A stretch of DNA of 64,000 nucleotides from Acidilobaceae archaeon (GTDB lineage: Archaea; Thermoproteota; Thermoprotei_A; Sulfolobales; Acidilobaceae): the NCBI GenBank assembly GCA_025058835.1, contig JANXEI010000001.1, positions 314,561 to 378,560 of the forward strand. The letters run 5' to 3'. Both the position numbers and the translations under genes were made by a program. Numbering within the stretch: position 1 is the first letter of the stretch; every line of letters begins with the position of its first letter. Below, in pieces: positions 22,900 to 25,117 of this stretch. The notes under the pieces are model-generated. The model worked only from the letters and a program-made list of their open reading frames with translations, searched no databases and was not told the DNA's origin.

Positions 22900-23577
22900 T
22901 TAAGGTAAGCTCACGAAATGTGAGTATCCTAAGGCCTTCAGTACCAAGCGAATGGGCATGTCTCCTATGAGCAGAACGAGGAGGAGGCCTATGGCGAGGT
23001 AGGCTATGTAAGGATGGCCAGGAGAGACCCTGACCTTTGCTGCGAGGTCTCCTCCCGAAACTCTCATGAGGATCTCGCGGGGATCTTCCTCTCTGCAGCT
23101 CTCCCCGCTTACCCCCCACCAGCGCAGGGCTGGGTCCTCTAGCAGCCTTTTCACCTCCACCTCATGACTTATCGCAAATATGCAGCCCAGGCTGAGGGAG
23201 CGGCAGAAACGGTAGTTGTAGTAAACCTGGGCCAGAACGGAGGGAGCAGCAGAGTAGATTACCGCGAGATAGAGAGAGGGGAAAATGGTTCCCACGGGCG
23301 ACATAACAGCAACGAAGAGCATAGCTAGCACGTCAGCCCCTCCCATAATACAGAACCTATAGAGCACGTATGCCACTGCGACCACGAGCAGAGACAGGAG
23401 CATGGAAAGGATATACGTGAGGGAGTCAGAGAGGGCCGTAAGGAGCGCCAACGGAGCGCCCGGGATACTCGCCGCTAGCCATAGGCGCGGGTCTACTTCC
23501 CTCGTCCTGATGTCGCTAATCCCAGCGTAGAGCATCACCAAAGTCACGTATGCAAGAGCCACCGAATGTACCTCCAA
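22900..23577 (-). CDS. Prepilin/preflagellin peptidase, A24 family
   Basis: A polytopic membrane aspartic protease that removes the class III signal peptide from archaeal pilins, archaellins and sugar-binding proteins. The two catalytic aspartates are visible in SDIRTREVDP (near residue 21) and IMGGADVLA (the GxGD equivalent, near residue 81). There are about six hydrophobic segments, and a cytoplasmic loop near 135-175 is larger than in PibD. At 225 residues it fits the archaeal enzymes. No pilin genes are next to it, though the two exported proteins downstream could be functional neighbours. TTG start. Confidence 0.85.
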   Translation of the reverse strand: MEVHSVALAYVTLVMLYAGISDIRTREVDPRLWLAASIPGAPLALLTALSDSLTYILSMLLSLLVVAVAYVLYRFCIMGGADVLAMLFVAVMSPVGTIFPSLYLAVIYSAAPSVLAQVYYNYRFCRSLSLGCIFAISHEVEVKRLLEDPALRWWGVSGESCREEDPREILMRVSGGDLAAKVRVSPGHPYIAYLAIGLLLVLLIGDMPIRLVLKALGYSHFVSLP

Positions 23578-23610: not shown

Positions 23611-23618
23611 CTATATAG
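23611..23618. promoter_or_regulatory. TATA-like element between the prepilin peptidase and acidic protein genes
   Basis: CTATATAG is a perfect palindrome in the 93-base gap between divergent starts at 23577 and 23671. It predicts a 12-base leader for the minus gene and about 30 bases for the plus gene. A second element, TTTTTATT at 23628-23635, could serve the plus gene with a leader of about 14 bases. Confidence 0.5.
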
Positions 23619-23670
23619 CGAGAAACGTTTTTATTCCCTCCAGAACTCCGAGAACGTGAAGTGAGAGAGG

Positions 23671-23820
23671 ATGGCAAGGAGAAAGTTCGAAGAAGAGGAG
23701 GAATACGAAGAGGAGTTTGACGAGGAAGAGCTAGAGGAAGAGGAAGAAGAAGAGGAGTACTGGGAAGAGGAAGAGGAGGAAGAGTACTGGGAGGAGGAAG
23801 AGGAGGAAGAGGAAGAGTAA
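23671..23820 (+). CDS. Tiny, extremely acidic protein (49 aa)
   Basis: An ATG-started frame of 49 codons ending in TAA. After a basic N-terminus (MARRKF) the protein is almost only glutamate, with a few Tyr and Trp in a repeating pattern: two YW pairs separated by runs of seven Glu. The glutamate codons mix GAA and GAG, so this is not a simple DNA repeat. GAGAGAGG precedes the ATG and a TATA element lies at a suitable distance. Such proteins can mimic nucleic acid, bind metal or chaperone basic proteins; none of these is shown. I recognise no family. Confidence 0.72.
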   Translation: MARRKFEEEEEYEEEFDEEELEEEEEEEEYWEEEEEEEYWEEEEEEEEE

Positions 23821-23836
23821 TACTTCTCTGACTTCC

Positions 23837-25117
23837 CTATAGATTTGTTTTACCTCTTATGTCAAAGAAAGTGTAGTCGGTTATCTCTACCCTCACCCAC
23901 CTGCCATAGGGCACTGGTGGGCTCACTACTACTGGAATATAGTTCCTCATCCTGGCAGTCACTGTGCCCTCCCTATGACCCCTCTCCGTCACCAGAGCCT
24001 CTACTCTCTTTCCATAGTACGAGCCCATCACAGAGAGCCCTATCTCCTCTATTACAGCGTTGAGCAGCTTGCTCCTCGCTTTTTTCACGCCATCTGGCAC
24101 CTGGGGCATGGCAGCAGCCCTGGTGTGGGGCCTTATGCTATATTGGGCAAGGTGGACCTTCTCGAACCTCAACTCCCTCACTAACTTCACAGTGTTCTCG
24201 AAGGCCTCCTCATCCTCTCCCGGATGTCCCACGATTATGTCTGTGGCTATCATGGCATCGGGGTACTTCGACTTAATCTTTCTGTGGAGCTCCTTGTACT
24301 CCTCTACTGTGTACTTCCTGTTCATGGCCTTCAGGACTTCGTCGTCGCCGCTCTGTACCGGCAGGTGGAAGTACTTGAAAACCCTCTCGTCCTGGTAGGC
24401 CTCCAGGAGATCGTCTATTATCTCGAGGGCAAGATCTGGGGTCATCATCCCCACTCTTAGCATGTAGTCCCCCTCTACTCCCTCCAGAATAGACCGGAGA
24501 AGGTCTGGTAACATAGGTCTCTTAGCCAGGTCCCATCCGTAGGCTCCCACGTCCACGCCTGTTAGCCTGATTTCCACTACTCCCCTTGAGACGAGTTCCC
24601 TCACCAGCTCCACTATCTGCCTGGGCGCGTAGCTCTTTATTTGCCTTCGCGCCACCTTCGTTATGCAGAAGCTGCAGTCGCCGAGACAGCCCTCCTGGAT
24701 CATTATCGAAGCATTCGCGTCTCTCGGAGAGATGAGGGGGAGGGAGGAGGTATCTCTCGAGCCCTCCAGGAGGACCTCTCTCTGCCCGCTCTCTACGACC
24801 TCGAGCACTTTGGTGACGTTCTGAGGCGAGAGGAGGCTCGCCTTGGGAGCTACCCTTGCTACTAGCCCCGGCCTCGCTTTCGCAAGACAGCCCATGACTA
24901 CCATCTTTTTCGAGGGGAACCTACTCGCCAGCTCTTGAAGCCTCTCCGCAATCCTCTGCTCTGTGTCAAGCCTTACTGCACACGTGTTCACTAACAAGCA
25001 GTCCGCCTCCTCAGGCGTAGAAACCCTTACATGTCCCCCTCTACTAAGCATGCTCTCTGCGACGGCGCTGTCGAACTCGGAGAGGGAGCAGCCGTACGTT
25101 TCTATGTAGTACTTCAC
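23837..25117 (-). CDS. tRNA methylthiotransferase (MtaB/CDKAL1-like, ms2t6A)
   Basis: A radical SAM enzyme expected to add a methylthio group to t6A at tRNA position 37. The N-terminal UPF0004 domain holds Cys10, Cys46 and Cys77 for one 4Fe-4S cluster; the radical SAM motif is Cys144, Cys148 and Cys151 in [10 protein letters not shown]-terminal TRAM domain (about 365-426) should bind tRNA. At 426 residues it fits the archaeal/eukaryotic branch. It would act on the product of the KEOPS pathway, of which Pcc1 is encoded at 47 kb. The 3' end lies 16 bases from the convergent acidic-protein gene. Confidence 0.92.

Follow-up and report, generated by a model that had tools for sequence, protein, structure and literature searches.

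Yeast Rli1/ABCE1 receives its Fe-S clusters by way of Yae1-Lto1, in which Lto1 (ORAOV1) is a small ABCE1/Rli1-devoted protein whose C-terminal Trp is essential as a docking residue and recruits the targeting complex (PMC4523923, PMC10623007). Eukaryotic CIA clients follow a C-terminal tripeptide (TCR) rule (PMC10623007). In eIF3j, a Trp within an acidic motif docks in a hydrophobic pocket, and the motif is reported to bind eIF3b (PMC2824034). HCR1 interacts functionally and physically with RLI1 and works with RLI1 in termination (PMC3836723). Here we describe an archaeal gene for a microprotein rich in Glu and Trp that, by analogy, may act like Lto1 or like the acidic-Trp arm of eIF3j/Hcr1 but belongs to neither. 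LysW, which ends in an acidic Trp-containing motif, offers a further point of comparison.

The gene lies in a window of 64,000 nucleotides, the whole stretch of Acidilobaceae archaeon DNA that was analyzed, among the following features:

22900..23577, minus strand: type IV prepilin peptidase (Pfam Peptidase_A24), divergent neighbor
23611..23637, plus strand: AT-rich promoter-like stretch, read from the sequence, 34 to 60 nt 5' of the start codon
23661..23667, plus strand: weak Shine-Dalgarno-like GTGAGAG, read from the sequence, 4 to 10 nt 5' of the ATG
23671..23820, plus strand: Glu/Trp microprotein gene (49 aa, 71% Glu), a derived family member without a C-terminal Trp, recognized by ORF translation, homologs, and selection
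23736..23811, plus strand: 27-bp in-frame tandem near-repeat coding for EEEEEEEYW units (TRF: 2.8 copies, 91% matches, score 110)
23837..25117, minus strand: MtaB-like radical SAM methylthiotransferase (Pfam UPF0004, Radical_SAM, and TRAM), a tail-to-tail neighbor that is lineage-specific in the window's family

The ORF translates as MARRKFEEEEEYEEEFDEEELEEEEEEEEYWEEEEEEEYWEEEEEEEEE. As the first-pass annotation had stated, this is a real Glu-rich ORF of 49 residues: Glu accounts for 35 of them, the protein starts with the basic ARRK, and two Tyr-Trp pairs stand nine residues apart (residues 30-31 and 39-40). Its C-terminal residue is Glu, not Trp, and 16 nt separate the gene from the convergent MtaB-like gene. 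A promoter and a ribosome site had also been claimed. TATA-like stretches (CTATATAG, 23611-23618; GTTTTTATTC, 23628-23637) and the weak GTGAGAG are visible 5' of the ORF, which makes both putative signals plausible as sequence readings; clearer GGAGGTGA-type Shine-Dalgarno sites are present in several relatives.

The Glu codons are mixed (20 GAG and 15 GAA), from which it had been concluded that selection acts on the protein and that repeat slippage played no part. The first half of this conclusion stands. Across 161 same-genus pairs, 1053 differences fall at codon position 3, against 256 at position 1 and 237 at position 2 (pN/pS about 0.13), in counts that exclude register-losing pairs, leave changes in Glu-run length uncounted, and draw on nonindependent pairs. 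The corresponding ratio is 0.05 for pairs picked at at least 85% protein identity, a choice that biases it downwards. Furthermore, the C-terminal 20 to 24 residues are identical in 37 pairs although at least 3 nucleotides differ. The third-position excess and the identical tails with different codons demonstrate strong selection on the protein; these figures establish coding function, not exact constraint. The second half fared less well, since the 27-bp near-repeat found by TRF indicates that the EEEEEEEYW units are probably the product of a short in-frame duplication and that local duplication helped shape the window's copy. The same near-repeat could suggest a spurious ORF over a purine-rich repeat. 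Given the dominance of third-position changes, the recoded identical tails, the recurrence of the protein across the phylum, and the near-zero pattern controls described below, that explanation is exceedingly improbable; repeat slippage or a chance ORF is rejected on the codon-position data and the near-empty controls.

To judge from sequence comparison, the microprotein belongs to a phylum-wide and apparently undescribed Glu/Trp family, single members of which may sit in UniProt or nr as hypothetical proteins. Members are Glu/Asp strings of about 18 to 77 aa (their start codons, and hence their exact lengths, are uncertain) interrupted by Trp or by Trp-Trp, Phe-Trp, Tyr-Trp, or Leu-Trp pairs, and Glu and Trp make up 61% and 13% of the residues in the family sample. 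The earlier statement that no such family is known was borne out. Neither the window's protein (P0001) nor the other free members had a Pfam or NCBIfam match, in profile searches that are limited by low complexity; a PDB sequence search returned no relative; and a literature search that included sequence strings found no description of the family. A 2025 Sulfolobus acidocaldarius atlas gives 95 additional putative small protein genes (PMC12817955).

Relatives occur in most examined genomes of the same order and far outside the order in the phylum. A DNA search gave matches in 32 of 40 genomes (its own and those of relatives), and the ORFs of the order relatives encode acidic microproteins in which aromatic residues come in pairs, such as MFEEEWWEEEEEEWWEEEEEEWEEEEW. 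Within the class, the pattern EEE[W/F/Y/L]WEEEE was present in 96 of 203 genomes and its reversed-pattern control in none; a relaxed pattern matched 25 of 78 genomes, most of them without the first pattern. An EEEEW-stop scan was positive in 166 of 397 genomes of the phylum, mostly at one place each, with an almost empty control pattern, and the gene is usually single copy. Among the 80 of 102 stretches listed in the named-genome scan, the hosts were Desulfurococcales/Sulfolobales-type archaea (Ignisphaera, Pyrodictium, Zestosphaera, Acidilobaceae), and the readable bacterial matches were segments of unrelated longer proteins. The gene appears to be absent from five ABCE1-bearing branches (f18, f53, f33, f23, and f27), although this does not prove absence because the scan pattern demands EEEEW-stop. 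Same-genus relatives of the window's protein carry YW, FW, LW, or a single W, and family f11, which we infer to be Sulfolobaceae, has diverged versions with Asp, such as MVLSLIEEDWEDIEEEDWEDIEEEDWEEEEW. Relatives with aromatic pairs exist, so that the idea of the first-pass annotation withstood its own refuting condition, although strict YW spacing is not kept.

Both within the order and beyond it, this gene is most often found immediately before the gene for the ribosome-splitting factor ABCE1. ABCE1 (Rli1) lies at most 1.5 kb from the microprotein gene in 22 of the 32 families sampled, a count that is not wholly blind because some loci were fetched through ABCE1 (the blind part being the loci reached by the class pattern and the EEEEW-stop scan), and is by far the commonest neighbor tested (PRTase, 8 families; ZnR, 7; Cgi121, 5; MtaB, 1). 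In 89 cases the microprotein gene precedes ABCE1 on the same strand, at a median distance of 130 bp and typically 50 to 250 bp. When EEEEW-stop loci were fetched regardless of ABCE1, 28 of 30 contained it; most of these belong to family f17, so that the independent support is the family count. Approached from ABCE1 instead, f11 had the ORF upstream in 13 of 14 loci, and a small acidic Trp-ending ORF lay just upstream in 8 of 20 loci from further families beyond the order, which had been taken without regard to the microprotein.

Within the order, neighbor clustering with Pfam and NCBIfam revealed a recurrent set of S17e, a MoaD/Urm1-like protein, a phosphoribosyltransferase, Cgi121 (KEOPS), the microprotein, in some genomes a TFS-like zinc ribbon, ABCE1, and what we take to be FBP aldolase/phosphatase and TIM. 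The order microprotein, single-zinc-ribbon TFS-like protein, ABCE1 is seen in several families, and three further families read later (f44, f57, and f60) have the order microprotein, zinc ribbon, ABCE1. The conserved protein that adjoins the microprotein, often between it and ABCE1, has an N-terminal RPB9/TFS zinc ribbon only:

L060:4548-4835, minus strand: RPB9/TFS zinc-ribbon protein of ∼95 aa, with relatives in f9, f12-f15, f19, f24, f44, f57, and f60

Separately, ABCE1 of family f23 (L335:2241-4988, plus strand) contains an intein of roughly 320 residues (Pfam Hint_2 and Intein_splicing) at about residue 55, within the N-terminal 4Fe-4S domain, and other f23 genomes have the same long ABCE1 ORF.

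The usual place of the gene, upstream of ABCE1 on the same strand, could suggest a translated leader (uORF) that regulates ABCE1, its Glu string and Trp-stop sensing termination or recycling capacity; in f11, ABCE1 has a Shine-Dalgarno-like site after a short gap, which would suit such an arrangement. A leader peptide requires a constant upstream position in cis, however, and several families do not keep one. The microprotein is conserved where its gene is divergent from ABCE1 (f9), it is nearly unchanged in some f17 genomes where about 900 bp lie between the two genes, and it has been relocated away from ABCE1 in f24 (mostly), f25, f35, f37, f40, f4, f5, f1, and the window's family. In addition, T-rich and TATA-like stretches separate the two genes in several families. 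We therefore disfavor the leader peptide, which we regard as distinctly improbable. Since it is conserved though inverted or relocated, the microprotein is position independent and has to function on its own, as a conserved, stand-alone protein gene. Among the relocated copies, that of f25 has a TFB/ribosomal-protein region as its neighborhood, and that of f40 is convergent with a methyltransferase gene (generic methyltransferase by Pfam) that is presumably HemK2-like.

Cgi121 is a neighbor in 5 families, and the window's own family has MtaB beside the gene. These neighbors raise another explanation, a role in the tRNA t6A37/ms2t6A37 pathway (KEOPS, MtaB), for instance that of an acidic accessory subunit of the Gon7 type. 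Gon7 is likewise a small accessory protein, and some members of our family lie near Cgi121, but no sequence link connects them. The Cgi121 linkage is nested within the wider ABCE1 neighborhood and is absent from the large f17, f11, and f3 samples. Cgi121 itself was assigned by NCBIfam and Pfam, with two of its three clusters joined by hhalign profile comparison only (97% and 83% probability), and the identity of the weaker (83%) cluster is tentative. Moreover, a fifth subunit of archaeal KEOPS, Pcc2, has already been reported (PMC9889334). We consider a role in this pathway improbable.

A second recurrent property of the family is its C terminus. Among 103 members collected without regard to their ending, 75 have Trp as the last residue; the figure is 75 of 87 outside the window's family and 0 of 16 members read within it; the usual ending is EEW. 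The spacing of Trp is tied to no helical face (mean z about 0 at 100 degrees) and has no amphipathic periodicity, so that an aromatic stripe on an amphipathic helix was rejected. AlphaFold2 modeled the microprotein as one straight helix (mean pLDDT 96), to which we give little weight because poly-Glu is commonly modeled as a helix.

Trp spacing off any single helical face is what a loose binder would show. Together with the Glu and Trp content of the family sample and the frequency of translation genes among the neighbors (ABCE1, ribosomal S17e, the f25 TFB/ribosomal-protein region), it is consistent with a general polyanion. As an acidic chaperone or a mimic of nucleic acid, such a peptide would shield basic proteins (ribosomal, chromatin) or coacervate with them, with Trp adding a cation-pi grip. 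This explanation, which is near the earlier proposal of a nucleic-acid mimic or histone-like chaperone, leaves the persistent ABCE1-specific linkage and the conserved C-terminal Trp unexplained, and we judge it rather unlikely. A metal binder had been proposed as well. The density of carboxylates is all that speaks for a Glu-rich chelator or cation buffer; the members show no Cys/His pattern, and Trp conservation and ABCE1 linkage again go unexplained, which makes this reading very improbable. Thus, the observation made in the first-pass annotation is confirmed and its interpretation partly supported: the functions it named have gained no specific support, and the ABCE1 linkage and the C-terminal Trp outside the window's own family favor a linear-motif partner of this ribosome-recycling factor.

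The window's family represents a derived state, in which the gene has moved off ABCE1 to a position mostly tail-to-tail with MtaB and the C-terminal Trp has been lost. MtaB and the prepilin peptidase had been singled out as syntenic markers. MtaB adjoins the microprotein within the window's family only (11 of 15 genomes), and the prepilin peptidase is shared with the closest relative (L014) only. Because each is limited in this way, neither indicates an ancestral role, and both were rejected as lineage-specific candidates for the ancestral partner. In 11 of the 15 genomes, the microprotein gene has a divergent neighbor that encodes an uncharacterized SAM-dependent methyltransferase (L031:4833-5777, minus strand, and relatives), and we take the genes near it to be CdvB/CdvC-like. 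With the gene detached from ABCE1 and its product devoid of a C-terminal Trp, the interaction would have been remodeled in this family, perhaps leaning on the internal YW/FW pairs. MtaB, a radical SAM Fe-S enzyme, as the new neighbor is suggestive, from this one family, of a maturation role.

How closely does the family resemble the known systems? Most members have the C-terminal Trp of the Lto1 type, but the window's own protein ends in Glu. Whereas Lto1 is marked by a deca-GX3 motif and is no acidic string, no deca-GX3 or Gly-repeat motif was found in any microprotein member. The CIA TCR motif is [LIM]-[DES]-[WF], whereas the microproteins mostly end in EEW, with an antepenultimate residue that is usually Glu and not Leu, Ile, or Met. 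Nearly all members have Trp within acidic residues, as in eIF3j/Hcr1, but this is a resemblance only, and eIF3j/Hcr1, with a helical core and a C-terminal domain, is far larger than any of the microproteins. To our knowledge, archaea lack eIF3b. With LysW/ArgW the likeness is in the tail: LysW-like zinc-ribbon domains of f35 and of a korarchaeon carry a similar Glu/Trp tail, but the free microproteins have no zinc ribbon and mostly end in Trp, in contrast to the substrate-carrying terminal Glu of LysW. These zinc ribbons were seen at L175:4285-4563 (minus strand, korarchaeon) and, in f35, at L290:2730-3008 (plus strand), L328, and L329; the genes beside the f35 copies are presumably TldD/PmbA-like. 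One f24 genome also encodes two similar proteins of ∼110 aa (L283:3047-3397, minus strand; L284:2713-3033, plus strand) with a conserved-Cys N-terminal part and a Glu/Trp tail.

We favor, tentatively, a stand-alone acidic-Trp linear-motif protein that acts in trans, most likely on ABCE1 or on its loading or ribosome cycle, a partner and mechanism that we infer. The information of the family would be held in aromatic anchors (ancestrally several Trp, the last residue included) within the Glu/Asp string, and the microprotein would serve as a short-linear-motif ligand whose target is ABCE1 or the machinery for its loading or release. A basic surface would attract the acidic string, while the Trp side chains and the C-terminal carboxylate would dock into pockets. 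Such a ligand could bring an assembly factor to apo-ABCE1, in the manner of the C-terminal Trp of Lto1 with yeast Rli1. Alternatively, it could modulate ABCE1 on the small subunit, as the acidic-Trp eIF3j/Hcr1 may do. In its specific form, as an archaeal ribosome-recycling cofactor of 20 to 50 residues that docks through Trp and the C-terminal carboxylate, controls Fe-S loading or ribosome binding of ABCE1 in parallel with Lto1 or eIF3j, and was overlooked because of its size and composition, the proposal is possible but still more tentative.

The partnership with ABCE1 is drawn from gene neighborhood, which does not equal interaction, and 10 of the 32 families, including that of the window, have no ABCE1 beside the gene. 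Together with the branches that seemingly lack the microprotein, these ABCE1-free loci indicate that it is not needed for ABCE1 everywhere, and it may be dispensable in some branches. We know of no archaeal counterpart of the CIA targeting complex, which reads the C-terminal Trp in eukaryotes. Also counting against the proposal, only 0.8% of the surveyed Fe-S proteins of E. coli and M. jannaschii end in Trp (PMC10623007).

Few translation factors are as strongly conserved in archaea and eukaryotes as ABCE1, and little is known of its maturation and regulation in archaea. A microprotein that occurs across the phylum, is usually single copy, and is linked to the ABCE1 gene in most sampled families is a directly testable cofactor candidate. 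The family also demonstrates that proteins of ∼20 residues made almost wholly of Glu and Trp can stay conserved for a very long time. Proteins of this class escape gene callers and profile libraries. EEEEW-stop upstream of ABCE1 provides a simple DNA signature by which more members can be found.
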